Source of the DNA: an uncultured Anaeroplasmataceae bacterium
GTDB taxonomy: Bacteria; Bacillota_I; Bacilli_A; Acholeplasmatales; Anaeroplasmataceae
NCBI GenBank assembly: GCA_949840955.1
Contig: CATKXV010000009.1
Coordinates: 1-64,000, forward strand
Length of the DNA: 64,000 bases
Direction: 5' to 3'
A model generated the notes under the pieces. It saw only the letters and a list, made by a program, of their open reading frames with translations. It was not told where the DNA came from and did not search any database. This document shows positions 18,722 through 35,638 of the stretch, piece after piece. The position numbers and the translations under genes were made by a program. Numbering within the stretch: position 1 is the first letter of the stretch; each line of letters starts with the position of its first letter.

Positions 18722-20911
18722 CTATTTTTCTTTAGTATCTACAGATACGCGAATTAAACCTCTAGCAATTAGCTTTTCCGTCGTCTCATACGGCATAACA
18801 TAATTTTCAGGTTTATTATTTATCGTACTTACATTGAGTTCCTGTAATAAAATATCAATTAATTCCTTTGCATATTCTACACGATGGACATTAGAAATTC
18901 GATACATACAAGGCATCTTACTTCTAGAACTATATAAGGATAAATCAATTACCTTAAATTTAGTATTTTCAAAACGCTTTGGATCCAAGGCTAAGCATAG
19001 GCAAAGCGTTTGATTCCGAATGACGAAGCAAGCTAAGGATTCTTTTCCTAACGAAAAGGTTTCCCGCTTCCAATTGGTTCGACATTTTATATTTTTATAG
19101 GATAATAAATAATTTTTAATATCAGAATATCTTTTCTTTATTGTATCTGTGGTTTGTGCAACAGCGGCTAAAAAGCTCCTGTTGTAGCGAACGGTTTGGC
19201 CATTCACCTTGATTTCTTCTACGATTTCAGCTTCTTCATCCTCTAGAAAGACCTCTGGTAAGGCTGTTTCTGATTCCAACACCTCATCCTCTACCTCCTC
19301 CATAGGAGTCGGCTCATATAGTACAACTTCATCGACGGTTTCTGCTTCTTTTTCTATTGTTTCGGCAGTTTCTGCATTATTTTCAATAGAAGAAGCTTCG
19401 ACAGTTTCTGCTTGTTCACTAGGCTCTGTCATTGTTTCCTCCACTGGTACATCTACCACTTCAACATCATTTCCCACAACTCGGATTAAATCTCTTTCGA
19501 TTAGTTCTTCGGTGGAAGCATAAGGTATAGCAAAATTTTCAATCTCTTTTTCTATGAAGGTCAAGTGATATTTTTCTTCAAATAAAAGATTAATTAATTC
19601 CTTTGCATACTTCACACGTCTATCGTTTGTTATACGATAAAGACATGGTGTCTTACTCTTTGGACTTCGTATAGATAGATCCTTTACCTTATATTTTGTA
19701 TCTTCAAACTGCTTTGGATCTAAGGCTAAGCATAAACAAAGAGATTTACCACGAACAACAAAGGTTGCTAAAGGATTTCTTCCTTGACGGAAGGCTTCCT
19801 TTTTCCAGCTAATTCTGCTTTTTACTCCTTTAAAGGATAAAATATAATTTTTTAAATCAGAATATCTAGAATTTAACTCCTCTGTGCCCTGAGAAAGCCG
19901 AGCTATAAAGCTCTTGTTATAACGGACTACAATACCATTTACAATGGTTTCTTCAATAACTTCTTTTTCTTCATCAAATTCTTCCTCAGTTTCACTTTCA
20001 GCTGGTTCCTCAGCTATTTCCTCTGGTTCATTTTCTGGTATACTGTCTTCTTTTTGTTCTTCTATGCTTACCTTCTCTACCGGTGTGCCTACAATACGGA
20101 TTAAATCTCGGGCAATTAAAGCCTCTGTCGTTTCGTATGGAAGCGTATAGTCCTCAAGGGCACGCTCTAAACGCTCAGCCTGATAATCCTCTATCAGAAG
20201 CATATCTATTAAATCCTTAGCATACTTTACTCGTCTATCGTTTGTTATACGATAAAGACATGGTGTTTTACTCTTTGGGCTTCGTATAGATAAGTCATTT
20301 ACCTTATATTTTGTATTCTCAAATTGCTTTGGATCTAAGGCTAAGCATAAGCATAATGTTTTTCCACGTATAACAAAGACGGCTAATGTATTTCTACCTA
20401 GTCGGAAGGCTTCCTTTTTCCAGCTAATTTTATTCTTAACTCCTTTGTAAGCCAATATATAATTCTTTAATTCAGAATACCGACTCTTTAATTCATCTGT
20501 AGCTTGGATTAATCTTGCAGTAAAGCTCTTGTTATAGCGAACAACCTTTCCATCTATAATAACCTCATCTACAATATCCTGTTCTTCATCTACGATAACC
20601 AAATCCTCTGGTTCCTCAAGAGGCTGCTCCTGTGGAGCTGACTCCACAGGGGCACTTCCCATATTGAAGAAGGGCTTATAAGGTGTAGTATCCTCAGAAA
20701 ATTCAGGATTTGAACGCATATCTGCTAATTGCTTTAGATAAAGCTCTCTTTGTTGCTGAAGCAGCTTTGAGAATAGCTTACGCTCACCACGCCTATGAAA
20801 AATAATTGCAAGGACAATATTTAATATAATAAGGATAACACCAACTATAGACACAGCCACTAAAATAATGGTTTGTTGAGGGTTAAAATACGATGCTAAA
20901 ACATTATTCAT
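18722..20911 (-). CDS. Membrane-anchored protein with three copies of an unknown basic domain
   Basis: A 729-residue protein I do not recognise. One membrane segment lies at about 14-38, followed by HRRGERK, so the bulk should face the cytoplasm. Three repeats of about 160 residues follow, at roughly 116-275, 321-481 and 566-723. Each contains VRYN[KR]SF, then LK.RYS.[LI]KNY, SWKKEAF, a [KR]xLCLCLALDPK strand, the strictly kept CLALDPK[QR]FE.TK[YF]KV.DLS, KxPC[LM]YRI and YAKELI, and closes with PY.[TS]TE.LI.R.LIRV. The repeats are Lys/Arg-rich and the linkers Glu-rich. The compact strand-rich core faintly recalls DUF5655/YdhG-type domains. The ATG at 20911 has GGAGG 8 bases upstream and overlaps the stop of the giant surface protein by 8 bases, so the two are translationally coupled. 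Confidence 0.8.
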   Translation of the reverse strand: MNNVLASYFNPQQTIILVAVSIVGVILIILNIVLAIIFHRRGERKLFSKLLQQQRELYLKQLADMRSNPEFSEDTTPYKPFFNMGSAPVESAPQEQPLEEPEDLVIVDEEQDIVDEVIIDGKVVRYNKSFTARLIQATDELKSRYSELKNYILAYKGVKNKISWKKEAFRLGRNTLAVFVIRGKTLCLCLALDPKQFENTKYKVNDLSIRSPKSKTPCLYRITNDRRVKYAKDLIDMLLIEDYQAERLERALEDYTLPYETTEALIARDLIRIVGTPVEKVSIEEQKEDSIPENEPEEIAEEPAESETEEEFDEEKEVIEETIVNGIVVRYNKSFIARLSQGTEELNSRYSDLKNYILSFKGVKSRISWKKEAFRQGRNPLATFVVRGKSLCLCLALDPKQFEDTKYKVKDLSIRSPKSKTPCLYRITNDRRVKYAKELINLLFEEKYHLTFIEKEIENFAIPYASTEELIERDLIRVVGNDVEVVDVPVEETMTEPSEQAETVEASSIENNAETAETIEKEAETVDEVVLYEPTPMEEVEDEVLESETALPEVFLEDEEAEIVEEIKVNGQTVRYNRSFLAAVAQTTDTIKKRYSDIKNYLLSYKNIKCRTNWKRETFSLGKESLACFVIRNQTLCLCLALDPKRFENTKFKVIDLSLYSSRSKMPCMYRISNVHRVEYAKELIDILLQELNVSTINNKPENYVMPYETTEKLIARGLIRVSVDTKEK

Positions 20912-23900
20912 TGTTCTTTCCTCCATCCTCTGGTTCTATAGCTTGCTCTTCATTTGGAGCTTCTGGCTCACCAATAGGCTTCATATTTTCTTCTAGAAGC
21001 CCTTGGGCAGCGAGTTCATCCTCTAACTCTTTTTTCTTTTTTCTCTTATGAACTGCATATTGGATTACAATAGCTATACCTGCAATTGCTGCGATTATAC
21101 CTAATACACTAACAACGATGATAAATACTGTATCCCAACCAACAACAAACCAATCAAATACAACTTCGTCTACCGTTCCATCTGACCATTCAAAGTTGGT
21201 TGTATCTTTAATGGTTACTGTAACCTTGAAGGAGCCACCATAGCTTGTTTTATTGCCTTCTATAGCCATAGTTTCTTCATCAAATCCAACAGGAATAAAG
21301 GTTAATGTTCCACCATTTACCATAAACATATTGGTGTTCATTGTTGGTTTAGCAATCTGCTTGCGAGCTACATTCCAATATAATTGAGCGTTACCATCAA
21401 CCATTGTTGTATCCTCTGCCCAAGCATAATTGTCAGAATCATTTAATACGAAGCTTACACTATAGGTATTCGCGTTTAAGCCATATATAGCTACAGTATT
21501 TCCTAAGGAAGAATCTCCATCATAGATCATACGCATTGTAGCTGGATTAAATCCTTGAATTACGGCTTGTAATCTAGATCCTGTATAAACCGTATTTTGA
21601 TTATCTCCCTCATTAACTAGAACTAATGTTGGTGCTTTTACAAAAGCCTTCGTAATATGGAATTCCTTTGCATCGCTGGTTACAGAATAATAATTATCTG
21701 TTTGTGGTGCAGTAATCTTTACCCAATAGGTACCTGCGGCAGTTGGAACATTTGCTGTATATACTCCATCCTTTGCATCAGAATAGCTAAATGTAAAGTC
21801 TTTTTCAGTACCAAATTTTATTTCTGCATTAGGTAAATTTTTTGTAGCATCATAAGCTCCATATACCCAATCCAGTATAGAAACTTCACTTTCAAATGCA
21901 TTATAGCCTCTAACAATTTCAAATGGTATTTCACAGGTAGCACTATCCACAGAGGACCACTTATAATTTGCTGAATCCTTTAAGGTTAATCCAACACTAT
22001 AATTACCAACTGCTTCAAAGTTTGTTTCTCCTGTAAAATATAATCCCTCAAACGCATGGTCTGTAATCACAGGCTTAACAACACTTCCTGTATACTCCAT
22101 TGGACTGGCAAATAAAACTTCTCTATTTGTATCATCTAAGGTTTTCTTTTCTACAACAAAGGATACACTTGGAGTTCCCATATTTGTAACTAACGTGTAG
22201 TTGTTGGTTTGAGTAGAAACGGCTGTAGCATAATAGTTTCCTGCAAGCGTAGGCTCAGAAGACCACATTTCAGCATTCGTATGTGACCAATTTCCATCAT
22301 TAGAGCTTCCCCAATAATTAAAACGAATCTTAGGAGCATGTGCCTCATCAAACGTTTCTAATACATTTAGGTTATCCTCTGTTGTATATACACCTGTTAA
22401 ACGGACTGGAGTTATTTCTCCTTGGTATACACCACCACCCGCTTCAACGGTAATATAAATGCTTAATGGGGTTATCGTATAAACACCTGAACCAAATACA
22501 GTTACATTATAATTTTTACTTGTTGTATGTCCTTCTGCATCAACCTTGTAGGAGGCAGCAGGATTATATCTACTATCTAAATCAACAAGGGAAGAACTAA
22601 TCGTAAGATTGATATTCAAATCAGAATATTCATCTCCTGAAACCAATTCATCTCCAACAACTTTCATTGTTACTAAAGATAAATCAATTTTTTGTCCATA
22701 AACGGTTGAAGCATCACCTAAAACTACCATGATGTTCTTTTTGTTTACTTTAAATGTTCCTTTTTCAGCAACTATTTTATAGTTATCTGCTGTCATACCA
22801 ACGACTTCGCCATTAGCTTCTTCTAGTTGAATATCATAGTCACCAACCTCAAGCTTGCCTGGAGCATCGACTAAGGTATATTGGATATCTCCCACAATTA
22901 CTTTAGAGGCAGTATCATTATTAATAAATCCTGAGAATTGATATTGATAGGTGCTTCCACCAGAAACTACAAAATCATCACCATAGGTCATAGAGCCTGA
23001 TGCTGTAACATATAGCTCTCTTTTTTCAATAACAAATTCAATTTCTTCACTAATTGCTGGTTCATCCTGAGCTCCAGCATAATAGTTCTTCGTTGCAGGA
23101 CTTACTGCACGTACCTTATATGTTCCCGCTTGAACAGGCTTAGTTGTTACCCATGCTTCATCTACATAGTACTCAATGATTACATCATTACTATAGGTTG
23201 CAGAAGCTTGTGGAGTAGCATAGCTTTCTCCATAGGTAAGACCAGAAATCAATTCTTCTACATCAAAGCTTTCAATTGCATTATCCTCAGCTGGAAGGAC
23301 TCTCCAAATATATTCTCCAATGGCTGCATCGGACCACGCATAATTGGATTGATCACTTAAGCTAAAGGATATTGTATATCCACCTTCCGTTACATCTGTA
23401 GCATGAAGAATCATACCCTTTCCACTTGTTGGAGCGCTCATACTACCTGCATAAGCTATGTCTAATAATTTTGTATCATAGCCTAGCTCTAAATGAAGTG
23501 TATTTCCTGTATAGATTGTTTCAATAACAAGCTTGCCATCTTCTTCTTTAAAATCTAATTCTGAATCTAAAATATTAGGAGCCTCTATCACTGCCTTTGT
23601 GATTTCAAATACCAAGAATGCCTCTGACATCTGATATTGATCAGATCCTGGATACCAAGCACACATTACATATAATCCAGCATCTGTAGGCATGCTTAAT
23701 GAATATCCTCTGTTATTTTGATCTAAATACAATGCTAGGTCACGATTGGTTATCATAGTTCCAAAGGCTGGCTTTTCATAATCCACTGGAAGTCCATCAA
23801 GTTTAGCATATTTATACAATAATCCGGCACCAGAAACATTGGTTGAAAAGCTGATTTCTGGAGCACTTTCTCCAAACTTCCAGGTTCCATTTGTAAATTC

Positions 23901-26900
23901 TAAGGAATCAATCGTTATACTAGAGGTTGCCACACGGAAGGCAAGGGTAAATTCAGCACCACTCGCTCCGCTTTCATCTCTCCACTCATAGTTTCTTATA
24001 GCTGTAGAAGAAATTCTAATGGTAGCCGTATATAATCCAATACCATATATTTTAATTAAAACCTTAGAAGAATTAGCATCTATATAATATCTTCCACCTG
24101 TAAAGCCAGATAAATTTAAAGCTTGGTTAATTCTTTCTACCACCTGTTCAGAGCTACTATTGGTAAATTGACGATTGATATTTTCCACAGTCATAATATC
24201 GTTGATAAAGCCTTCTATATCTCTTTGCTTATCATCACCCGTATTGTAATTCAAATACTCATCATCAACCTCATTCCAACGTACACTAAGCTTTTTCGTA
24301 TGAACCTCATACTCAAGCGTTGTTGATGTATTGCCCTCAGAAGAGTTCTTAGATACCACCATATAATCGTATTTTCCCTCTTGAGAGCTCATAATTACTG
24401 TAGCAGCATACTTACCAACCATACGAGGTCCATCGGATAAAATCTCCTCTAATGCATCATCGACATTAACATATTTCATGGTATATTGTGGTGCATATTT
24501 TGAAATAATACCATCTAAAATAACACCATATTCATCCTTTTCAATCGCCTTGGTATAATATTTGCTTGTACCATTCGTATTGTATAAAGAAGCATCATAA
24601 TCCTCAAACACAACCTGAGCAGCATGATAGGTTCCTCTTCTACCCTGCTCATAGTTGATCTTACCATCATCCTGAATATATTCTGTATAGATACGATCCT
24701 CTGTTGTAGCCGTTACCATACGAGATACAACAGTCATAGTTGCAGGTAGCCAGTTGGTTACTTTATAATTATCAAATTCCATTTCAACTGGGAACACTTG
24801 ATATACTGACCCAGCATGGCTATCCCAAGCTACATAAGCTGGTGTTCCATTGCCAGATTGCTTTACTGTACTAAAGGTTAAGCGATTATTTGCAGAAGCT
24901 ATAAATTCTTCTGTATCATCTCTTTCTACTAATCCATCGTATTGAGCCGTTAGATAATAGTAGCTTGAATCTGCCTTCTCAATTAAATTTCCATAAGGAA
25001 TTGTAAATTGAGTTGTAAAGTCTTCTGAATTATATAAGCCTGTAGATCCAGCCTGTACCTTAAGATTAGCTTTTTCAATTTCAAAGGTAGGAGCTGTATC
25101 AACATCTGTAGCTGTAGTTAAAATTTGACCGCTCTTGTTCTTGAAGGTAATGTCATAATTTGAAATTCCAGAGCCTTCATTTAAATTCATGTAATAGGTT
25201 CTAGCATTTAATCCTTTACCCGCATTTACACCAAAGGAGCCATCACCATAAAGGTTAAGATAATAATTAAAGATTTCTGCATAATTCTTATCCTTATCCG
25301 CTACAGCCTCACCATACCACTTGATACCACCAGCTAAATCCTGTGGAACAAAGTAGCTATGAGAAGCTAGAGTTTCTCTATGGTCTGGGCCTTGTAATTC
25401 TCCTGTATAAACTACACTCGCATATGTATTTTTAGATTCAGCACCTTGAACAACAACTACAATTTCACGAGGCTGTACAGTCATTCTTGCTGTATTACTA
25501 TATTCCACCTCATAATTGTAGAATAATAATCCATTTGGTTGAACATAGTATTGTCCTCTTGCTGTTGAGGTTGCAGGATCATACTCTGTAGAATAGGTTA
25601 CTTTAGAAGCGTCAGAGGCACCTGTAAGCTGTAGATTTTCTGCTTCTATTAAAGCTAATGTATTAGGATCTAATTTAAATCCACTAAACAATGCTTCATT
25701 TGTAGTTGTTCCATTTGCTGTGATTGGTGTACCATATTGCACCATTGCATCCATTGCACGAACAGAAGTCTTTTTTGCACGAAGAACCGTGAAGGTAAAC
25801 TCATAGGTATCTGTTGTTCCTTGCTTTAAAAATTCACTAGGGAATTTATAATTTTTAGCCTCTGTACCCTTAAACTTCAATGCTACTGTATATACACCAG
25901 AATGCTGTACAGATAAGGTGTAAAGAGATTTTGCAACATCAAAGCTATGAGAAACAAAACGATCAACATAAGCATCTGCTAAGGTCATTGGTGTTCCATT
26001 TACTGCTTTACCATTTACGATTAAATCAAACTCCAATCGAACATTTTGATCGGATCCCTCACTTACTGAGGAATTATTATAAATATTATTAAATTGAACT
26101 GTTAATTCATTCAAATTGCCTACACCTAAATAGATTGTAGAATTTGTACCATACTTTAAACTAGTAGAGTAATTTCCATCTCCATTTATATTTGCAGACC
26201 AATGTAACTCACGCTCTGTAATCCGTACTGCTGTTCCTAAGCTTCCTGCATCAAAGGAATAGTTTGGATTTTCAACCACAATACGTACTGGATATACTCC
26301 TACATTTACAGGAGCATCATCCAAATATGTACCATCCTCATATTTGTATTGTGCCTTATAGGAAACCTCTCCTGTTGGATCATTTGGAACATTCCCTGTT
26401 ATTTCAACAGCCTTTCCTGTACCATCGTAATCCGTTGATGGAGCACTTAAGGTAAGACTTAGGTTTGCCGTTGTAATCTTATAGGTACCTGCCTTATAAG
26501 AGCCATCCATTAGCGTACTGATCATACGATCAGAGAAGATAGAGGAATAGTATGCCTCTATATATGTATTATAGAAATCATATCCTGTAAAGAACTCATT
26601 TACACGATCCTCTAAGGCTTCATCACGTTCATACTCTGTATCAATAGAAATATCATAATTTTTCTTTGCTAAATCATTCTTATAGGACGCAAAGATTGCA
26701 TAATTACCAACATTTTGTGTTTGGATATCTCCGTCTAGCAATGCATTGGTTTGTAAAAGTACAAATACATTAGAGGCTACATCATTTGTAAACTGCGTAT
26801 CTGTTGTTCCATAGAATGGTTGCTCTGATGAGAACACAATACCAAGCTTGTTTTCTCCTAAAGTTGCAGTAAAGGTCAATTCCTCTCCTGCTCCACCAGT

Positions 26901-29900
26901 ATCTCCATGTGCCTTATTGAAATCATATTGACTTGATTTCTCATCAATCGTAAGAACTACAGGACGTCTTAAAACCTCAAGATCCCCCTCAACATCCTCT
27001 GTTCCATTATGATTCCAATGGCAAATATAATTGCTATATTTCTCTGCTGGATCCTTAAATTCTAAAGTATATCCATAGCTTCCAGCATCAGAGATACCTT
27101 TTTGATAATCATATATATAATCTACAGATAGAACATCCGTTAATTCATCGATTGCTCCAGATCCATTATCTACAAGACCTAAAGTTTCTACATCACGAAC
27201 AAAATCCTCTCCATAATAGGTTTTAGAGTCCTTTGCCCAAAGATATAAATCTCTTGGAGTAATCTTGAAATACCGTGTATCAGTAGCATCTGAATAGTTG
27301 GTATTTCCCTTGAAGATATATTCTAGCTTATAGCTTGTTGCATTAAAGCTTCCTGCTTCTAATTGCTGTACAAAGAATGCTACAATATCAGAGGTTTCTT
27401 CACCTAGTAAAACCCAATTGGATTCATTTAAGTAATATAGCTTATATAATATCGTTGTATTATCTGTTGTGCCCTCTGGAGCGCGATTCAATTTTGGCTG
27501 TGGTAAAATAATTTTATGTTTACTGCTATCATATCCATTTGTTGCACCTACACCATATACCCAAGCCTCTTGAATGTTCGTTTCTGTATCTGTCAAAGGA
27601 TCAACTCCTTCAAATCCAAATACTTTTAAGAACTTATTATTGGCAAGTGAAATTGTAAATACAGCGACTTTTCCATCAACGGCCTCTGTAGGTATTTCTA
27701 GCTCATTTTCTTTTGTTTCAACTGTAATGTCGTAATTTTTATATAAATCACCAACAGTCTCAACCAAATAGAATGGATAATCTTTAGCATCATTTGTGGC
27801 AGTTATATTGCCATCCGTATCCTTAAGTAAAGCCTCAGTTACTAGAGTAACAATATCTGAAATATGTTTACCTGTCTGAAGATAAGTTGTTACTCTACCT
27901 CCAACAGTTGATTGAATAGAAACCTCTAATTTATTGTATAATTCTTGGAAGGTATCTACCAATAATACATCACTATCTTCCTTAGAAGAAACATCCTGAA
28001 TATAAATATTACTTAAATTAGGAATCGTTATTGTTATAGGAAGTTCTTGAACATGAAGGCTTCCTGCTTTTGTCTCAAATGTATAATTATCAGCAGTTAA
28101 CCCTGAAACATTCATGCTAGTTTTATAATCTCCTACAGCATTCCAAATGGAATAATCTGGTGAAGTAAAGCTAAACGTTCCAGAGATAACATCTCTTCCA
28201 TCAGCTCCCTTAAGACCATCAACCGTAAAGATATTCTTTGTAAGATCGTTATAGCCCGCCACATCTACTGTAGGTAACAGCTCACCATAATATATAGAAT
28301 TAAGATCAACAAAATCAACAGAAAGTGTTAATACAGCTTTTTGTATTTCCACCTCAACCTCTATTCCTTCAATTGGTTTATGGTTATTCGCAGATGCTGT
28401 AACGATATAGCTTGTTTTTACGAAAGCATTCGTTGTAGCTCCTGATACTGTCTCTGTTGTATTCTTCTTTGTGATTGTCCATACAACTGGATTGTTCTCC
28501 AAGTTTACCCCTGACAAGCCTTTATATGTTATTAAGGAAGGTCTTTCTTGGTTTTCTATAGCCTGAATCCAATCATAAGGATTCGCATCATAGGTGATGA
28601 CCTTATTAGAATTTACATTACCTAAAATTTCATCAACCGTTAATGTAGCTTCTGTTATGGTATAGTCTCCTAATTTAGCTGTGTCATTTTCGTTAGTTAA
28701 TTCATTTGTATCTACATGAACAATATAATTCAAATCATTTCCTTTAATAACCATGATGGAATACTCACCAACAGGATTATATTCAACATCGGTTACATCA
28801 TTTGAATCCTTCATTATTCTTAATACAAAGATTTGAGCTACATCATCTCCAGAAACTAACCAATCCGTTGAATTTGAAACACCCTTATATGTTACTGTAT
28901 ATGGTGTTCCTATTTGTATCTTATCCTTTTGATAAACACTAGAAGCCTTGGTTTCATCAAAAACCAATGTAATTTCACGCGCTACTACTGAAATAGAACC
29001 CATAGCTTCAGCAGTGTCATCTGACAACACATAATTCGTTACACCAGAGGCAAGCTGAATGACAACATCATAGCTACCAACAGAAAATTTGTTGGATGTA
29101 TTTTTAATTTCGTAGGTTAAAATTTCTTCTGCTTTGTCATTTGAACAAATCTTAGCACTACCTACAGCATAATTCCACCAATTTGTACCAGATAATGTAG
29201 GAGTTGTTCCGTATTCGAAGGTTTCACAATTCTTCACTCCTACCAAATCCAAGGTTACTGGATTTATTTTTAGAGTAGTCTTAATAGAAGCCTCTTCCGT
29301 TTTTACAGAATAATTTTTATCTACTGTATCTGTTCCTGTTATAGAAACTGTAAAGGTATAGGTACCAACATTTTTTATAGAAGCTGGATTTGAGCTTATG
29401 GTTATTGTTGGAGACACAGGCGTATCACTTTCACTCTTTTTCGCTAGATTTGTAACAGCAGCTGTTACTAAATCATTTGGAGTATAGGTTGTGCTTGTAT
29501 ATTGCATTTCCCATCCAGAAGTATTACTTTCTACGATTGAATTTGCAGAATTCCATTCAACAATAATATCTTTTGGTTTAATCTCAAAAGCATGCTTTAA
29601 AGGTATATTTTCAAATTGTGATCCATCACCAAAGTCAATATAAACATATATTCCATAATAGCCTACATTCCATGGTAGTCCATGAACTAAATCTGTTATT
29701 TCTGGGTGTGCTGAAGAATCAAAATCATGATTTAAAACATCTAAGGAATAAATCTTATAGGTGATTGTTGGATTTGCCGCTAAAACTGTTTTAGCATCAT
29801 CACTATCTGCAAGATGAACATAGCTTGCATCATCATCTAAAGCCCCTTGAGTATACTTTGAATCAATGCCGTTATCTCCAAATATATAGGATTCAGCTTG

Positions 29901-32900
29901 AATATCTAACGTAGGTTTAAAAATCTTTCGCGTAATCATATAAGCTAGGAATAACAAGGTGCCCTCATCTTGAATTGCCACATCTCCCCAACCAGATTCA
30001 GTTAAGAATTCAATATTGGTTTTATCTAGTGTATTTTCTTTCCATTCATAATTTAGATGATTTTGATCGCCTGAATCAGATATATTAAATTGAATATAAT
30101 ATGTACCATACTGAGTAGGATCTATAGAGTCCGTAAGGTACTGGAAGCCAGAGCTTTCATATTTAGCAAATTCTACTGACCATGAAATATGATGCCCATT
30201 CACATTGACTCCCAATCCATTACCATCCAAATAATATTTCGTATTTGCAATAGTCACATATAAAGAGGAATTCAAGCTTGGTTTTTTAGTATCTCCATCA
30301 TATTCTAAGGTACGATTTCCTCCTAAGGCAGGCGCTGTAATTTCCATACGTGATATTTGAATTTCATCAATCACAATTTCTGCCAAACTGTTTTTCCACT
30401 TATAATTTTGTGTATCAGTTAAAGTAAAGGTAATTTTATATTTACCAGAGTTGAGGTAGCTAAATACTCCTGAAGAATAGCTTGCTGCATGAGCTGTAGC
30501 ACCAACTGCATCAAAGCCACCAAGTACCTCACCATGGATTAAATCATTTGCATTAAAGCCTGTAACACCAGTAGCTGTAGGTAATGTTACAGCTAAATCT
30601 TGAGTAAGACCTGTAAAAACACCTGTTTTAGATGCCATAGATGGTGCATCTAATTCAAAAGGATTGATGGTGATTTCCTTACTAAAATTGGATAATGTAT
30701 AGTTGAAAGCTCTTGTACTTGTAGAAGTAAATCCATCTAATACAGCCGTATATCCTCCTGCTGTAGTTCCATTACTTGTTCCAGCAGATAGGGTAACCTT
30801 ATTTAATTTTACATCCCCTTGATCTGTTGTATTCAATAATGCAGAGGCTGATATTGAAGGTGTTGGTGTTTGTTCCTTTCCATTATATGTAAAGGTTGTT
30901 GTCCCCCAAACGATATCTGTTTCCTCTATAGCCTTTGGAGTGATTGTGAATGTAGCAACAAATCCCTTCTTGTTTTGAATTGCCTCAGGAGCAACCGTTC
31001 CAAAAGGACTCATAGATGATGCATTCGCCCAATCAAAGTTCGTATTAGGATAAACATAGATGGTATATTTTCCTGTATCTGTAAGTTTAGGAAGAATTTC
31101 ACCATTCAATTTCTCTGCATTTTCATGATTTGCACTATCAGATACTACATAATATAAAACCTTACTGTTTTTTTCTGTTCCATATAAGAAAGCATCTATA
31201 TTTGTAATAAAAGCTGTAAAATCATAAGCAGAACCTTGATATATTCCACTTAATGTTGTCGCAAACAATACATCATCTAATGCAGCAGATTGAACAGTAA
31301 AGGTAATAATTTTCTTTTCCGTAGGGAATTTATAATTATTTGCTAAATTATATCCCTCTGCATTCGTTGTTCCTGTCCAGCCTGTTAACAAATAATAATA
31401 TTCATCTGCTGTCATTGTAGTCTTGTCAGTTACTAGCGTACCACTTGCATAATGTAATGTATAGTTTAATTGAATTTGATCTGCTAAACCTAATCCAACC
31501 ATAGTTATGGTAGGAGTTTCTTGACCTGTAGTTGAAGTAGGGTTAAACTCAAATGTATTATCATTCCAAATATAATCATCCTCAGCATTTGCTGATTTTA
31601 ATGAACCCTTTAATTCCTTTTGGTTCATTGTTAATGTAATGATTGGAGTATTTGAAGGAGCTTCTCCTTCCTCTGTTGTAGCTACACTCTTCCATACATA
31701 ATTGGAATTCAATGAAATTGTAAAGGTATAAACACCTGCATGTAAAACAGAAATTGTACCCGTATTCGCATTAAAGGATGTATTATAATTTGCTAAATTT
31801 GTTATCGTTGTATCTACTGTTCCATTAGCATCAAAAGGATTTCCAGAAAGAACTCCAGTTAAAATAGGGGTTCCCTCATTATCATTGTCAGAATTCCAGC
31901 CTAGAATACTATACTCCCAAGCAACACCATTATAGGTTTGACTTACACTAACATCCTCAATTCTATCAATTTCCTTTGGTGAAATCGTAAAGGTTGCTGA
32001 TGCTGTTGGCAAACTATAATCTGTTGCCAAATGCCCTGAAGCCACAGATAATGTTCTTTTAATAGTATATGTCCCCACAGGCCATTTCTTAAAGTCTGCT
32101 GCTACTACTTCCTCATTCTTTGAATTATAGTACTTCGTATCTCCTTCGATAGCAAAGAAATAGCTTGGCTTGGTTGGAGATAAATAAGGTGAGGTTGTAG
32201 AATCATATTGATCACTATAACCAAAGGTTGGGGTTGGTAATGTATCTGAATCATAAACAAAGCCTAAAGCTGCTTCGTTTGTGATGTCATATCCCAATTG
32301 ACGCTTATATATTTCAAATTCCTTTGTTACTGAATTGTCCTCTTTATTTACAGTTACTTCCTTTGCCCACATATAATTACTCTTATGAGCGTCAGCAATT
32401 GTAAGCTTTACAGAGTACTTTCCAGCATGTAATGCTTTATTTCCTACTAGAGGAATTCCAGTAGATAAAGATTTTAATGATCCAGCAACTACTACATCAG
32501 TATCTCCATACTGAATTCCCGTTATTCCTGTGACAAAATCATCGGCATCTCTAGCAATTCCATCAAATGTAATGTTAGGTAATAAATTATCTGGAGTCAA
32601 CGGAGCAGGAGTTACTTCTATTGTCGGACATCCATATCCTGGTCCTGGAGTTGATGTAGCAGCCAAATAATTCGTAGTATCTGGAACGAGAACCTGAACA
32701 TAATATTCACCAACTGGAAGATTATCTGTTAAAGGTGTAGTCTCCCAACCTGTTGCCGTTTTAAGATAATAATGAATCGTATACTTTGCTATAAGCTCAT
32801 TAGACGCGATATCACTTTCACTATCCCCATAAACGATATTCAAATTTGAACCATCAATTCTTGTTCCTGTAATTTTTGGAACCTCAGGAGTACTACCATA

Positions 32901-35144
32901 TACCCATGATCCATTTCCATAAGAAACAACCACTGGAGTAATAGGACCCTTACTTATTTCAACGACATAGTGGATAACTGTACCAGATACACCCTCTCCA
33001 CTAGCCCATTCAACCTCTTCTTTTAATTCATCGGATATTTTCAATTCAATATAATATTTTAATCCACCCGCCAAAAATTGAATATCTTCTGTTTTGGAAA
33101 GACTTGATTGATTATATTGAGCAAAGGTAGATAGTGTAGAATAGGTATCATCTTCAAAAACACCTAAAGTAATACCATCTAATATTTCTTGATCTATAGA
33201 AGAATTAAATGTAATTGTTTTTATTGTATTTGTAGAAAAGCTTACTGTTGATGTATCAAAAGTAGGAAGCGTAACAACATATTTTTTAATATTCAATTCT
33301 GGAACTGCTGCAAAAGCACCATCAGAACTCCAATCTGATCCTTCTGTCAAATCATATCTAAATTCAACTAATATGGATTTGACTTCTTTGGTTATTATTG
33401 GTGTTTCCCCTATATAACAACCAATTTCATCCGTTCCAGCAGTATCTCTATAAAAAGTAATTCTAATATGACTAGACTTTCCTTCCGCATCTAAAAAATC
33501 TACTAATGGCACATCTCTACGTTGATTTCCCCATTTTATTGTTACACTTAAATCTCCATAATTAAATGGCATTCTCATTGTCTGATCTGGGAAATGGTTT
33601 GCAACAATGTTTACAGTATTCCAAGACGTTGGGGAATTATAAAGAACTTGTACTGCATACTTGGTTGTAATCGTTGTATCAGGACCATATATAATCGTTA
33701 CTTCTTTATCGTATTTAAATGTTTTTAATTGTTCTGGTGTCATAGTAGCTACTTGAGCTAGAACCTCAGCCGTCGGATTTAAAGTTCCCTGTGCTGTGAA
33801 TTGACTACTACTCAAAAAGGTTTTATTCCATACACCCGTATTTGCTCTTGTAATAATATAAGAACTATCACTACCAGGTTGCATAAAAATAGGATTGGTA
33901 GCTACATCTTTAGAGGTTAATTCAATTGTTTCATTAAAACCAGTTGCTTTTATTTCTATCACTTTAGCCAATTCAAAATTAACAGATATAGAAGCAGATA
34001 CGGATTGTCCTCCGATATGATTATAAACTTGAGCAGAAATATCATTATTATTTTCTATAAAATTGGTATTATTAAAAACCACATATTCACTTGTATCTGC
34101 TGTTGCTGAATTTTCACCTATTGTAGGAAAGCTCAACATTCTACTAGAATTAGAATAATGTACTGTGATTTTAAGTCCATCCCCATAAATATCCTCTAGA
34201 GTAGATCCAGCAATACCCTCAGTACCAGCAACGAATGCAGAGAACCATTTTTCCTCTTCTCCCGCTATGGTACTACGCTTTTTATAATACATACCATCTA
34301 AGCGATATTCCGGATTAACGCTAAAATCAGCTGCCAAAATATTGGCTTGAGTTACACTTGAAATCTTTCCACTGGCTGTTAAAACTTTATCTTTAAACTG
34401 ATATGTAACTGTGAAGGTTGCGCTATTTCCAGGGGTTAAGCTGCTTAGTTCAGTTACTTCATACAATTCTTTATTAGCTATAACCTTACCTGCTGAATCC
34501 TTAACAACAATGATTTCCTTTAAAGATTCCTTGTCATAATCATTCGTTAAAGAGGAAATAGTATCTACTGTAATTCCCGTTATCTCATCAAAGGCATTGT
34601 AATCCTCTTCTGTTGCTAAAGAAGCTAATCCTACTGGAACTGTAGCTGCAATCTCAGAGTTTGCTCGTTTTACCTTGATAACTAAATTTACCTGATCTGT
34701 TTCTGCTGGCATATTATCTAAAACAACATCATTTTCAGATAATGTATGCTCATAGCTACCAATTGAAATTTGAAGTGAATATTCGCTTTTTCTCAAATTG
34801 ACAGATACAGACTTATCACCACTAGAAAACGTTCCTAAAACCTTTAAATTATTTTTAAGATCATGAGCTGTCGTAACACCAACATAAATTTTAGCTCCTG
34901 AATTTAAGCTGGCTGTTACTCCCGTATATTCATGCATCGGTTTTATTTCATATACTTCTTCTGGCTGTTGCTCCGTAGATCCAGAGGATTCATCCGTTGC
35001 AGTATTTACATGGGAATTATCATTCTTATTGACATTTGCAGTGAATGCAGGAACTAGTGTAGCCGTTAAAGCAATTACACTTATGAATACTGCACATACA
35101 CCAATGATAATCCTATGCTTTAAAAATTTCCTTAATACTTTCAT
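20904..35144 (-). CDS. Giant modular surface protein (4746 residues, MBG/YDG-like repeats)
   Basis: One uninterrupted 14.2-kb gene, about half a megadalton of product. Residues 1-11 are basic and 12-35 hydrophobic (signal peptide or anchor). The body is a chain of immunoglobulin-like beta modules of the kind called MBG/YDG in large adhesins: stretches such as YGDDFVVSG, TYGQKIDL, ADNYKIVAEKGTFKV and STKNYYAG-like ends. Ten modules finish in an N[YF]xW motif (for example NYKWKN, NYAWSD, NFEWSD). A membrane segment at about 4670-4698 is followed by HKRKKKKELEDE and a 40-residue acidic tail. There is no LPXTG sorting motif, so it stays membrane-anchored. The start has TAGGAG 6 bases upstream. 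It is flanked by the 75-residue coiled-coil gene and the coupled triple-repeat gene. Adhesion or envelope bridging is inference. Confidence 0.85.
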   Translation of the reverse strand: MKVLRKFLKHRIIIGVCAVFISVIALTATLVPAFTANVNKNDNSHVNTATDESSGSTEQQPEEVYEIKPMHEYTGVTASLNSGAKIYVGVTTAHDLKNNLKVLGTFSSGDKSVSVNLRKSEYSLQISIGSYEHTLSENDVVLDNMPAETDQVNLVIKVKRANSEIAATVPVGLASLATEEDYNAFDEITGITVDTISSLTNDYDKESLKEIIVVKDSAGKVIANKELYEVTELSSLTPGNSATFTVTYQFKDKVLTASGKISSVTQANILAADFSVNPEYRLDGMYYKKRSTIAGEEEKWFSAFVAGTEGIAGSTLEDIYGDGLKITVHYSNSSRMLSFPTIGENSATADTSEYVVFNNTNFIENNNDISAQVYNHIGGQSVSASISVNFELAKVIEIKATGFNETIELTSKDVATNPIFMQPGSDSSYIITRANTGVWNKTFLSSSQFTAQGTLNPTAEVLAQVATMTPEQLKTFKYDKEVTIIYGPDTTITTKYAVQVLYNSPTSWNTVNIVANHFPDQTMRMPFNYGDLSVTIKWGNQRRDVPLVDFLDAEGKSSHIRITFYRDTAGTDEIGCYIGETPIITKEVKSILVEFRYDLTEGSDWSSDGAFAAVPELNIKKYVVTLPTFDTSTVSFSTNTIKTITFNSSIDQEILDGITLGVFEDDTYSTLSTFAQYNQSSLSKTEDIQFLAGGLKYYIELKISDELKEEVEWASGEGVSGTVIHYVVEISKGPITPVVVSYGNGSWVYGSTPEVPKITGTRIDGSNLNIVYGDSESDIASNELIAKYTIHYYLKTATGWETTPLTDNLPVGEYYVQVLVPDTTNYLAATSTPGPGYGCPTIEVTPAPLTPDNLLPNITFDGIARDADDFVTGITGIQYGDTDVVVAGSLKSLSTGIPLVGNKALHAGKYSVKLTIADAHKSNYMWAKEVTVNKEDNSVTKEFEIYKRQLGYDITNEAALGFVYDSDTLPTPTFGYSDQYDSTTSPYLSPTKPSYFFAIEGDTKYYNSKNEEVVAADFKKWPVGTYTIKRTLSVASGHLATDYSLPTASATFTISPKEIDRIEDVSVSQTYNGVAWEYSILGWNSDNDNEGTPILTGVLSGNPFDANGTVDTTITNLANYNTSFNANTGTISVLHAGVYTFTISLNSNYVWKSVATTEEGEAPSNTPIITLTMNQKELKGSLKSANAEDDYIWNDNTFEFNPTSTTGQETPTITMVGLGLADQIQLNYTLHYASGTLVTDKTTMTADEYYYLLTGWTGTTNAEGYNLANNYKFPTEKKIITFTVQSAALDDVLFATTLSGIYQGSAYDFTAFITNIDAFLYGTEKNSKVLYYVVSDSANHENAEKLNGEILPKLTDTGKYTIYVYPNTNFDWANASSMSPFGTVAPEAIQNKKGFVATFTITPKAIEETDIVWGTTTFTYNGKEQTPTPSISASALLNTTDQGDVKLNKVTLSAGTSNGTTAGGYTAVLDGFTSTSTRAFNYTLSNFSKEITINPFELDAPSMASKTGVFTGLTQDLAVTLPTATGVTGFNANDLIHGEVLGGFDAVGATAHAASYSSGVFSYLNSGKYKITFTLTDTQNYKWKNSLAEIVIDEIQISRMEITAPALGGNRTLEYDGDTKKPSLNSSLYVTIANTKYYLDGNGLGVNVNGHHISWSVEFAKYESSGFQYLTDSIDPTQYGTYYIQFNISDSGDQNHLNYEWKENTLDKTNIEFLTESGWGDVAIQDEGTLLFLAYMITRKIFKPTLDIQAESYIFGDNGIDSKYTQGALDDDASYVHLADSDDAKTVLAANPTITYKIYSLDVLNHDFDSSAHPEITDLVHGLPWNVGYYGIYVYIDFGDGSQFENIPLKHAFEIKPKDIIVEWNSANSIVESNTSGWEMQYTSTTYTPNDLVTAAVTNLAKKSESDTPVSPTITISSNPASIKNVGTYTFTVSITGTDTVDKNYSVKTEEASIKTTLKINPVTLDLVGVKNCETFEYGTTPTLSGTNWWNYAVGSAKICSNDKAEEILTYEIKNTSNKFSVGSYDVVIQLASGVTNYVLSDDTAEAMGSISVVAREITLVFDETKASSVYQKDKIQIGTPYTVTYKGVSNSTDWLVSGDDVAQIFVLRIMKDSNDVTDVEYNPVGEYSIMVIKGNDLNYIVHVDTNELTNENDTAKLGDYTITEATLTVDEILGNVNSNKVITYDANPYDWIQAIENQERPSLITYKGLSGVNLENNPVVWTITKKNTTETVSGATTNAFVKTSYIVTASANNHKPIEGIEVEVEIQKAVLTLSVDFVDLNSIYYGELLPTVDVAGYNDLTKNIFTVDGLKGADGRDVISGTFSFTSPDYSIWNAVGDYKTSMNVSGLTADNYTFETKAGSLHVQELPITITIPNLSNIYIQDVSSKEDSDVLLVDTFQELYNKLEVSIQSTVGGRVTTYLQTGKHISDIVTLVTEALLKDTDGNITATNDAKDYPFYLVETVGDLYKNYDITVETKENELEIPTEAVDGKVAVFTISLANNKFLKVFGFEGVDPLTDTETNIQEAWVYGVGATNGYDSSKHKIILPQPKLNRAPEGTTDNTTILYKLYYLNESNWVLLGEETSDIVAFFVQQLEAGSFNATSYKLEYIFKGNTNYSDATDTRYFKITPRDLYLWAKDSKTYYGEDFVRDVETLGLVDNGSGAIDELTDVLSVDYIYDYQKGISDAGSYGYTLEFKDPAEKYSNYICHWNHNGTEDVEGDLEVLRRPVVLTIDEKSSQYDFNKAHGDTGGAGEELTFTATLGENKLGIVFSSEQPFYGTTDTQFTNDVASNVFVLLQTNALLDGDIQTQNVGNYAIFASYKNDLAKKNYDISIDTEYERDEALEDRVNEFFTGYDFYNTYIEAYYSSIFSDRMISTLMDGSYKAGTYKITTANLSLTLSAPSTDYDGTGKAVEITGNVPNDPTGEVSYKAQYKYEDGTYLDDAPVNVGVYPVRIVVENPNYSFDAGSLGTAVRITERELHWSANINGDGNYSTSLKYGTNSTIYLGVGNLNELTVQFNNIYNNSSVSEGSDQNVRLEFDLIVNGKAVNGTPMTLADAYVDRFVSHSFDVAKSLYTLSVQHSGVYTVALKFKGTEAKNYKFPSEFLKQGTTDTYEFTFTVLRAKKTSVRAMDAMVQYGTPITANGTTTNEALFSGFKLDPNTLALIEAENLQLTGASDASKVTYSTEYDPATSTARGQYYVQPNGLLFYNYEVEYSNTARMTVQPREIVVVVQGAESKNTYASVVYTGELQGPDHRETLASHSYFVPQDLAGGIKWYGEAVADKDKNYAEIFNYYLNLYGDGSFGVNAGKGLNARTYYMNLNEGSGISNYDITFKNKSGQILTTATDVDTAPTFEIEKANLKVQAGSTGLYNSEDFTTQFTIPYGNLIEKADSSYYYLTAQYDGLVERDDTEEFIASANNRLTFSTVKQSGNGTPAYVAWDSHAGSVYQVFPVEMEFDNYKVTNWLPATMTVVSRMVTATTEDRIYTEYIQDDGKINYEQGRRGTYHAAQVVFEDYDASLYNTNGTSKYYTKAIEKDEYGVILDGIISKYAPQYTMKYVNVDDALEEILSDGPRMVGKYAATVIMSSQEGKYDYMVVSKNSSEGNTSTTLEYEVHTKKLSVRWNEVDDEYLNYNTGDDKQRDIEGFINDIMTVENINRQFTNSSSEQVVERINQALNLSGFTGGRYYIDANSSKVLIKIYGIGLYTATIRISSTAIRNYEWRDESGASGAEFTLAFRVATSSITIDSLEFTNGTWKFGESAPEISFSTNVSGAGLLYKYAKLDGLPVDYEKPAFGTMITNRDLALYLDQNNRGYSLSMPTDAGLYVMCAWYPGSDQYQMSEAFLVFEITKAVIEAPNILDSELDFKEEDGKLVIETIYTGNTLHLELGYDTKLLDIAYAGSMSAPTSGKGMILHATDVTEGGYTISFSLSDQSNYAWSDAAIGEYIWRVLPAEDNAIESFDVEELISGLTYGESYATPQASATYSNDVIIEYYVDEAWVTTKPVQAGTYKVRAVSPATKNYYAGAQDEPAISEEIEFVIEKRELYVTASGSMTYGDDFVVSGGSTYQYQFSGFINNDTASKVIVGDIQYTLVDAPGKLEVGDYDIQLEEANGEVVGMTADNYKIVAEKGTFKVNKKNIMVVLGDASTVYGQKIDLSLVTMKVVGDELVSGDEYSDLNINLTISSSLVDLDSRYNPAASYKVDAEGHTTSKNYNVTVFGSGVYTITPLSIYITVEAGGGVYQGEITPVRLTGVYTTEDNLNVLETFDEAHAPKIRFNYWGSSNDGNWSHTNAEMWSSEPTLAGNYYATAVSTQTNNYTLVTNMGTPSVSFVVEKKTLDDTNREVLFASPMEYTGSVVKPVITDHAFEGLYFTGETNFEAVGNYSVGLTLKDSANYKWSSVDSATCEIPFEIVRGYNAFESEVSILDWVYGAYDATKNLPNAEIKFGTEKDFTFSYSDAKDGVYTANVPTAAGTYWVKITAPQTDNYYSVTSDAKEFHITKAFVKAPTLVLVNEGDNQNTVYTGSRLQAVIQGFNPATMRMIYDGDSSLGNTVAIYGLNANTYSVSFVLNDSDNYAWAEDTTMVDGNAQLYWNVARKQIAKPTMNTNMFMVNGGTLTFIPVGFDEETMAIEGNKTSYGGSFKVTVTIKDTTNFEWSDGTVDEVVFDWFVVGWDTVFIIVVSVLGIIAAIAGIAIVIQYAVHKRKKKKELEDELAAQGLLEENMKPIGEPEAPNEEQAIEPEDGGKNNE

Positions 35145-35180
35145 AAAAACTCCTACCCTTTTTTAGTCTTATAATGCGTC

Positions 35181-35212
35181 AAAAATGCAGTCTATTCCAA
35201 AGCTGCATTTTT
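35181..35212 (-). terminator. Terminator/attenuator hairpin between the coiled-coil gene and the giant gene
   Basis: A 10-bp stem (AAAAATGCAG / CTGCATTTTT) with a 12-base loop, ending in five T on the minus strand. It lies 14 bases after the 75-residue gene and 36 bases before the giant gene. No strong promoter is visible after it, so partial read-through is the likely way the giant gene is expressed. A weak TATAAG follows at about 35174-35169. Confidence 0.7.
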
Positions 35213-35226
35213 AATAATAACTTGAA

Positions 35227-35454
35227 TTATTTTATCTTTTCTAATTCTTTTTTAAGCTGACGAAGATTTTCACGCTCTAATTCAATTAGATTGGTGTATA
35301 ACTTAAAATATTCTACATCAGATGCATTAGGTGCAACGTTATTCACATGCGCCTCCATTAAAGAGGATTGAGAACGCTGACGCTTCTGTTCTAAAGCTAC
35401 AATTTCCTTTTCGCTTTCTATAATTTGTTTTTTTAGGTTTCTTTTTTTAGACAT
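35227..35454 (-). CDS. Small coiled-coil protein
   Basis: A 75-residue soluble, highly charged protein. Two heptad-like helices (about 4-33 and 48-75, LKKQIIESEKEIVALEQK and LIELERENLRQLKKELEK) are joined by a short turn VNNVAPNASD, suggesting an antiparallel hairpin or a dimer. It has no signal peptide, no cysteine and no known catalytic motif. A very strong AAAGGAGG site precedes the ATG. It is the first gene after the promoter that probably also serves the giant gene. Function unknown. Confidence 0.75.
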   Translation of the reverse strand: MSKKRNLKKQIIESEKEIVALEQKRQRSQSSLMEAHVNNVAPNASDVEYFKLYTNLIELERENLRQLKKELEKIK

Positions 35455-35577
35455 AATAACATCCTCCTTTTAATGTAAAATATGTTGGCAAAACCAACAT
35501 CAAATAAAAAATCAAAAATTTCATAGTAAGGAACTATTTTACTACAAATTAAGATAAAAAATTTGTCAAATCGACTC
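35455..35577 (-). other. Structured 5-prime leader of the giant-protein locus
   Basis: The predicted transcript begins near 35577, giving a leader of about 123 bases. It holds a hairpin ATGTTGG/CCAACAT (35482-35500) about 10 bases upstream of the ribosome binding site and an inverted repeat TAGTAA/TTACTA (35524-35544). Neither ends in a T run. I recognise no riboswitch class. Together with the promoter and two terminators this fills the 317-base gap between genes. Confidence 0.45.
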
Positions 35578-35583
35578 ACTTCC

Positions 35584-35638
35584 ATTATACCTTTTTATCC
35601 CATAGTTTGTCAACGATTTATTATGTAATACATAATAA
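35584..35638 (-). promoter_or_regulatory. Strong promoter with upstream 21-bp palindrome for the giant-protein locus
   Basis: On the minus strand, perfect TTGACA (35613-35608), an 18-base spacer and perfect TATAAT (35589-35584). Five bases upstream of the -35 lies a palindrome with 9-bp arms TTATTATGT / ACATAATAA (35618-35638) and a 3-base centre. The promoter is seen directly; regulator binding to the palindrome is inference. Confidence 0.82.

Follow-up and report, generated by a model that had tools for sequence, protein, structure and literature searches.

A giant surface protein and a membrane protein with repeated basic domains form a recurring gene pair in Anaeroplasma-like Bacilli and Clostridia

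Gut bacteria commonly bear giant surface proteins; to our knowledge, how cells sense or use them from inside is mostly obscure. A locus on the minus strand of the window (the whole stretch of 64 000 nt from an uncultured Anaeroplasmataceae bacterium that was analysed) raises this question in a concrete form: which protein stands on the inner side of the membrane behind a surface protein of 4746 residues, and what could it do there? A preliminary description had read the locus as a system of three proteins served by one promoter, in which an acidic tail of the giant touches basic repeats (called here REP domains) of a partner. In the order of the minus strand, the promoter is followed by the gene of a 75-aa coiled-coil protein, the gene of the giant and the gene of the REP protein; the features are as follows.

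35584..35613, minus strand: sigma-70-type promoter TTGACA-18-TATAAT, 12 of 12 positions matching
35227..35454, minus strand: ORF of the 75-aa basic coiled-coil protein
35179..35214, minus strand: terminator-like hairpin, AAAAATGCAG...CTGCATTTTT, between the 75-aa gene and the giant
20904..35144, minus strand: ORF of the giant type I surface protein, 4746 aa
22752..22994, minus strand: MBG_2 domain (PF18676) at giant residues about 4051-4131, Pfam match above the gathering score
21066..21122, minus strand: giant, C-terminal membrane helix with its core at residues 4675-4693
20907..21065, minus strand: giant, cytoplasmic tail of 53 aa with net charge -6, unconserved and predicted disordered
18722..20911, minus strand: REP protein, 729 aa, start at an ATG with GGAGG, ORF open to 20926
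20813..20869, minus strand: REP protein, membrane helix at residues 20-38 (numbering of the 734-aa ORF) with the N-terminus predicted outside, a topology backed by fusions
20093..20545, minus strand: REP domain 1, net charge +11, modelled with a YjbR/YdhG/MotA-C-like double-wing fold
19478..19930, minus strand: REP domain 2, net charge +11
18746..19195, minus strand: REP domain 3, net charge +12

All three proteins, of 75, 4746 and 729 residues, are present with the features first ascribed to them, and so is the strong promoter. Transcription of the three genes as one unit is less well founded: behind the 75-aa gene stands a terminator-like hairpin (-13.4 kcal/mol, z -4.9); analogous hairpins were seen at the same position in G006 and G005, both of the relatives that have this layout. 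The 75-aa gene keeps its location in two relatives of the genus. Of the 60 genomes in the order-level set, only 4, all of one genus, have it, and its extra copies in G005 and G003 adjoin other surface-protein genes. With this distribution and the hairpin behind the gene, a three-protein system is not supported: the conserved unit is two genes, giant and REP, and the 75-aa gene lies outside it. The GC content of the giant gene (35.1%) and of the REP gene (36.0%), next to 33.7% in the rest, does not indicate recent transfer; despite this composition, the nearest sequence relatives of the pair outside G006 are Clostridial.

The giant starts with a membrane or signal segment, continues as a chain of Ig/MBG-like beta domains and ends with one membrane helix and a short cytoplasmic tail. 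The MBG_2 domain scores 32.4 bits (gathering score 25) when the C-terminal 698 aa are scanned, and 23.7 bits when all 4746 aa are scanned. The VGxxTVF motif before the C-terminal helix and the KRKKKK stretch after it are both conserved. LPXTG, the motif of sortase-anchored surface proteins, is absent around this helix (WFVVGWDTVFIIVV...HKRKKKKELED), and a tail of 53 aa follows. Chains of beta domains likewise make up giant bacterial adhesins (the grappling-hook protein GhpA, SiiE, Lar_0958, MBG_2 proteins), and Foldseek matched the giant to GhpA, SiiE, Sap and Lar_0958. Unlike adhesins of the GhpA/SiiE/Lar_0958 type, for which we know of no cytoplasmic REP-like partner, the giant of the window ends in a membrane helix and has a dedicated cytoplasmic REP partner.

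The REP ORF (18722-20926) codes for 734 aa if counted from the first ATG; the second ATG (20911), preceded by a GGAGG Shine-Dalgarno sequence, gives ATGAATAA and overlaps the TAA of the giant, in agreement with the length of 729 aa and the 8-base overlap proposed earlier. The product has an N-out membrane helix, a juxtamembrane motif RRGERKL...LQ, acidic linkers and three REP domains, indeed copies of one basic domain (the first is 69% identical to the second and 56% to the third; net charge +11 to +12, pI 9.6). The linkers, with net charges of -11, -19 and -31, are far more acidic than the tail of the giant. Among REP proteins a motif FSPxQ-TM-RxERKL...LQ is conserved, and in the giants the membrane helix with KKKR. 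Pfam matches of the window's REP protein to betaPIX and KaiA_N were dropped; they cover acidic or low-complexity sequence around the linkers.

Do the two genes belong together? The pair of giant and REP turns up repeatedly among Anaeroplasma-like Bacilli and widely in Clostridia; the named isolates Pumilibacter muris and P. intestinalis have it too. For 42 of the 87 collected proteins with a membrane helix and REP, the gene lies immediately downstream of one for a large protein that has a C-terminal membrane helix; the genes overlap in 29 of these 42 pairs. This count is biased, REP having been the route to most of the Clostridia loci; searches with the giant as query are free of that bias within a genome set (the Clostridia family itself was chosen for holding pairs). 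Close homologues of the last 698 aa of the giant in 60 genomes of the order adjoin REP in 3 cases of 3, and homologues of its C-terminus at E<1e-60 in one Clostridia family (74 genomes) in 15 of 15. In these sets, close homologues of the giant do not occur without the repeat gene, an outcome in favour of the preliminary description, and the gene order holds in related genomes for the pair, though not for the 75-aa gene beyond its genus. Among weaker matches in the same Clostridia family, 6 were resolvable, with 3 adjacent to REP and 1 fused to it; two short homologues (519 and 627 aa) had no REP neighbour.

Furthermore, ectodomain, membrane segment and REP make up a single polypeptide in seven proteins or more (L053, L129, L150, L151, L152, L154, L157, L164, L233). 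Mapped on a tree, pairing requires 10 or more changes and fusion 6 or more, on starred branches. As these fusions put REP behind the membrane segment of an ectodomain, REP faces the cytoplasm, as was first supposed. They also argue, being found in other species, that giant and REP protein are functionally one machine. One could still suppose that the neighbourhood reflects chance or historical linkage with no joint function, given that REP proteins elsewhere lack giants; the overlap in most pairs, the recurrence of pairing in both Bacilli and Clostridia and the repeated fusions make this reading extremely improbable. The coupling of giant and REP is well supported, and recurring adjacency bears out the earlier idea that the two belong together in an undescribed, membrane-spanning surface system. 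REP itself is not specific to giants, since REP proteins without a giant neighbour lie on contigs C6 and C10 of the same genome.

How the two proteins meet is a separate matter. Direct contact between the acidic tail and the basic repeats, the model first put forward, takes its appeal from the charges in the window (53 tail residues with net -6, and +11 to +12 on each repeat) and from a few relatives that are acidic-tailed as well. Across the 42 pairs, however, acidic tails (net -3 or below) number only 8, against 19 basic ones (net +3 or above), and 16 tails are no longer than 20 residues; the charge of the tail shows no correlation with that of REP (rho -0.20, p 0.20). The tail is also unconserved and predicted disordered (pLDDT 35-40), and the linkers of the REP protein itself are far more acidic; we therefore regard such contact as very unlikely. 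Contact between the giant and the REP protein would rather run through the two membrane helices and the basic segments next to them.

What REP binds has to be judged from its fold and charge. The family had no match in Pfam, NCBIfam or PDB sequences: a PDB sequence search with the window's REP protein and with the REP profile gave nothing significant, and searches of NCBIfam and PHROGs gave isolated weak matches only. None of the three copies in the window matched the Pfam model of MmcQ/YjbR (PF04237); one of 37 family members did match Pfam YjbR, weakly (E 0.0012). The REP model (pLDDT 94.6) has YdhG, YjbR/DUF419 and the T4 MotA C-domain as top structural matches, all with Z under 8: 2oc6 (YdhG/DUF1801) is best with Z 7.9 (rmsd 3.3 over 105 residues; Foldseek E 0.024), and NB7804A 2kl4 (7.7), YjbR 2fki (6.8) and MotA-C 1kaf (6.7) score lower. 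The best Foldseek E was 0.009. Of 135 nonredundant REP domains, 98% carry a net positive charge; the median pI is 9.5. MmcQ/YjbR (PF04237, DUF419) and the MotA C-terminal domain share the basic character of REP and, at these Z scores, may share its predicted fold. A DNA-binding reading of YjbR double wings has been published, and the MotA double wing binds DNA (PMC7641849). YjbR proteins are described as cytoplasmic or fused to nuclease or EVE domains, whereas REP is tandem, membrane-tethered and coupled to a giant ectodomain. REP may accordingly bind nucleic acid in the manner of YjbR/MotA double-wing domains; as the match is middling overall and frataxin-like folds score too, this binding is something we infer.

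The frataxin-like matches suggest another ligand. If REP were a frataxin/YdhG-like domain binding iron or another protein, the module would pass on a metal or redox signal or serve as a scaffold; the structural matches do include true frataxins and YdhG, which goes by the name of frataxin in Listeria and Bacillus. Frataxin, however, binds iron via an acidic ridge; in REP, a markedly basic domain, 13 basic positions are conserved but few acidic ones, and a conserved acidic iron ridge was not seen. We consider this reading quite unlikely. YdhG/DUF1801 proteins also differ from REP in being small and soluble.

About 45-46 proteins of the REP set, almost all of them with REP, contain a ribosomal-protein-L15-like domain; one REP protein paired with a giant and giant fusions are among them. 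The model uL15-like (PF00828) scores above the gathering score in the relatives L023, L123, L047, L058, L152 and L017, and the Pfam scan did not find it in the window's REP protein. This fusion would suit a biogenesis factor, with REP and the L15-like domain binding RNA or the ribosome so that the REP protein holds ribosomes or the mRNA of the giant at the membrane for co-translational export. Partners of 4300 to 9165 residues, the basic REP and the position of its gene directly behind the giant would fit as well. Still, an export factor would be expected to precede the giant and to be shareable in trans; besides, REP is also paired or fused with ectodomains of 750-1000 aa and occurs in soluble and EAL-domain proteins. 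This makes a biogenesis factor unlikely.

The reading that we put forward, with roughly even chances, is a giant adhesin or receptor coupled across the membrane to a cytoplasmic, nucleic-acid-binding REP module. The giant would be an anchored surface fibre of Ig/MBG-like domains; the REP protein, translated immediately after it, would sit beside it in the membrane by its own helix, and its one to four REP domains would reach into the cytoplasm on long acidic linkers. The module would then connect the surface of the cell with DNA or RNA, and do so either as a regulator in the membrane that answers adhesion or as a physical tether. The positive charge of REP and the L15-like fusions speak for this reading as well; the absence of the L15-like domain from the window's REP protein speaks against it. 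We infer both its nucleic-acid ligand and its output; regulation or tethering via nucleic acid is favoured, the two not being separated from each other. ToxR and CadC, membrane-bound one-component regulators, likewise have an extracytoplasmic part, one membrane helix and a cytoplasmic DNA-binding-type fold. The likeness is one of working only: the winged helix Trans_reg_C (ToxR/CadC type, OmpR-type domain) was absent from the window's REP protein in the Pfam scan, and in contrast to these regulators REP is multiplied, placed on acidic linkers and usually separate in chain from the ectodomain.

In two bacterial classes, gene order and fusions are enough to identify the inside partner of a giant surface protein, and this partner carries domains usually linked to DNA or ribosomes; the family and the pairing are undescribed in Pfam, NCBIfam, PDB sequences and the literature searched, where nothing relevant was found on giant-REP pairing, on REP or on L15-like fusions. 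More tentatively, one could speculate that Anaeroplasma-like Bacilli and many gut Clostridia possess an undescribed class of envelope-spanning machines, in which giant fibres are coupled, by gene pairing or within one chain, to double-wing and L15-like domains in the cytoplasm. Nucleic acid of the cell (nucleoid, mRNA or ribosomes) would in that case be tied physically or informationally to surface contacts. In a profile comparison, REP also showed a likeness, suggestive only, to the C-terminal domain of a protein of ~380 aa in a parallel system of G005 and G003 (E 4e-4, probability 35%).

The window is part of contig C9 in a genome of 2.1 Mb. Its three open reading frames, the gene overlap, the repeats and the promoter were all found as in the preliminary description; the 729 aa of the REP protein (the membrane protein with three copies of a basic domain, REP) and its 8-base overlap with the 4746-aa surface protein, the giant, were correct as well, the better start being codon 6 of a 734-aa ORF, with GGAGG upstream of it. 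The order of small gene (encoding the 75-aa coiled-coil protein), giant and REP gene is kept in two relatives, G005 and G006, the latter a congener; in a third, G004, the gene of a 2209-aa surface protein overlaps that of a 235-aa protein with a membrane segment and REP (TM+REP).

The pair of giant and REP gene is real and widespread. Named genomes supplied the 79 loci of a search started from REP. Almost all these genomes belong to Clostridia, many being bins of gut metagenomes, and the set includes Pumilibacter muris and P. intestinalis. A large protein that has a membrane helix at its C-terminus directly precedes 42 of 87 TM+REP proteins (spacing -23 to +38 bases), with overlapping genes in 29 of these 42 pairs. 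To escape the bias of starting from REP, we searched with the last 698 aa of the giant: homologues were present in 3 of 60 genomes of the order, with REP adjoining in all three; in the Clostridia family that includes Pumilibacter (74 genomes), REP directly followed all 15 close homologues (E<1e-60). In these two genome sets no close homologue was without a REP gene. Among six resolvable weaker matches in the same 74 genomes, three were followed by REP, one carried it in the same chain and two, both short proteins, were without it. The largest partner has 9,165 residues. Open frames of ∼7,100 to 9,165 residues, among the longest proteins in this comparison, occur in uncultured Clostridia (L205, L207, L209 and L210, on G453:C7, G446:C25, G451:C3 and G450:C13), several directly upstream of a REP gene.

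The pair in L058 (uncultured Clostridia bacterium SRR15604549_bin.13) is nearer to both proteins of the window than are most members of their own family. This suggests transfer between the Clostridial lineage and that of the window, though the GC content of the locus is that of the host.

A system of three proteins, as first proposed, was not upheld: the small gene was present in only 4 of 60 genomes, all of a single genus. The single promoter proposed for all three genes does exist; a single three-gene transcript is uncertain, as a terminator-like hairpin follows the small gene in all three genomes with the shared layout, each time with a different sequence. In G005 and G003, paralogues of the small gene lie downstream of other Ig-like surface proteins, the tails of which are long coiled coils, and upstream of a ∼380-aa coiled-coil protein, whose C-terminal domain weakly, and possibly, resembles REP (hhalign E 4e-4, probability 35%). 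These loci (L041, L043, L044 and L045) make up a parallel surface system, with the long coiled-coil tail of the Ig-like protein being cytoplasmic.

The giant runs from an N-terminal membrane segment through beta domains to a single membrane helix, behind which lies a tail of 53 residues. Its C-terminal 698 aa contain MBG_2 at gathering score, and repeat profiles built from them found more copies, which cover 47% of the chain. In the model of this part (mean pLDDT 81.6) a string of beta domains is followed by a helix (622-661) and then by a tail that is disordered; it structurally resembles, among bacterial proteins, the GhpA grappling hook, the Sap S-layer protein, SiiE and Lar_0958. The giant is an adhesin-like stalk.

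The REP domain (∼150 aa) had no acceptable match in Pfam, NCBIfam, PHROGs or PDB sequences. Copies 2 and 3 of the window are about 74 and 59% identical to copy 1, and each copy has a net charge of +11 to +12. An AlphaFold model from 37 natural sequences (pLDDT 94.6) matched YdhG (2oc6, Z 7.9), NB7804A (2kl4, Z 7.7), PSPTO_3016 (Z 7.0), YjbR (Z 6.8) and the T4 MotA C-domain (Z 6.7) best, with frataxins ranking after; the comparison tool grades such Z values as middling. As several members of one fold class agree and one REP family member matches Pfam YjbR (E 0.0012), a YjbR-like double wing is likely but not proven. Over 135 nonredundant copies, pI has a median of 9.5, net charge is positive in 98%, and 13 columns are ≥75% basic; in the 60 residues upstream of the first REP the median net charge is -11.5. 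DNA binding has been argued for MmcQ/YjbR double wings by analogy with MotA (PMC7641849). That REP binds iron or protein, in a role without nucleic acid, appears improbable.

That the repeats are cytoplasmic, as predicted earlier, was borne out by chains that unite a long ectodomain with membrane segment(s) and with REP (L053, L129, L150, L151, L152, L154, L157, L164 and L233). Just one C-terminal helix is present in L157 and L164, so that REP must be inside; several others have, near their end, two clear helices separated by a weaker hydrophobic stretch, which would give three passes. In a tree built from 135 REP domains, the paired state requires no fewer than 10 changes on starred branches and the fused state no fewer than 6. 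Splitting and fusing have recurred in evolution, classical evidence that the parts function together.

The proposed binding of an acidic tail of the giant to the basic repeats fails. Tail net charge is -3 or lower in 8 of 42 pairs and +3 or higher in 19, the tail has at most 20 residues in 16, and no relation of tail charge to REP charge was found in the 42. Among the 27 pairs that could be aligned, no part is less conserved than the tail, while membrane-flanking motifs are kept (VGxxTVF-helix-RKKK in the giant, FSPxQ-helix-RxERKL...LQ in the REP protein); contact in and just under the membrane is more likely.

About 45 of 149 REP proteins scanned carry a C-terminal uL15/L18e-like domain (PF00828); there were 46 matches, one being a separate gene adjoining REP. 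The set takes in membrane-anchored and fused surface proteins, and six (L017 and the five below) score above the Pfam cut-off:

L047, 8761-9906 (contig C10 of the window's genome), REP and uL15/L18e-like protein
L058, 8900-10987, the same, in a giant-paired REP protein
L152, 150-5051, the same, in a fused giant
L123, 9911-11008, REP and uL15/L18e-like protein
L023, 1117-2481, REP and uL15/L18e-like protein

As surface proteins here carry, on their inner side, two domains from families associated with nucleic acids, a nucleic acid is the favoured ligand. A role in translation or export seems unlikely; that the giant is an adhesin or receptor coupled to a nucleic-acid-binding partner we consider an even prospect. 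The output may be gene regulation, nucleoid tethering or holding of ribosomes. The parts fall into fold classes already known, with the REP family unnamed; the combination of giant and REP is undescribed in the literature and databases searched. It represents an envelope system in which a surface protein is paired with a membrane-tethered inner partner.

In the window's genome REP is also joined with an EAL domain. This second pair (L049 1-7841, C8:78000-85840) consists of a cadherin-like surface protein of at least 1641 aa and, with a 4-base overlap, a membrane protein of 972 aa that has degenerate GGDEF, EAL and, at the C-terminus, REP. On contig C6 of the same genome, L048 encodes a soluble 277-aa protein with N-terminal REP and a CBM20-like C-terminal domain (7053-7886). 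Directly beside or near REP genes are the Wadjet defence genes JetA and DUF4194 (Pfam) in L050 (12085-14093) and, by eye, similar ORFs in L048 (10296-12309).

The reference family of the Anaeroplasma group is regarded as wall-less. Positions 37134-38837 of the window encode a penicillin-binding protein with transglycosylase and transpeptidase; peptidoglycan genes are reported from 40-60% of genomes of the group's family (PMC10868615). A second large surface protein of the window, 1400 aa (49602-53804), combines nine List_Bact repeats with a pectate lyase domain.
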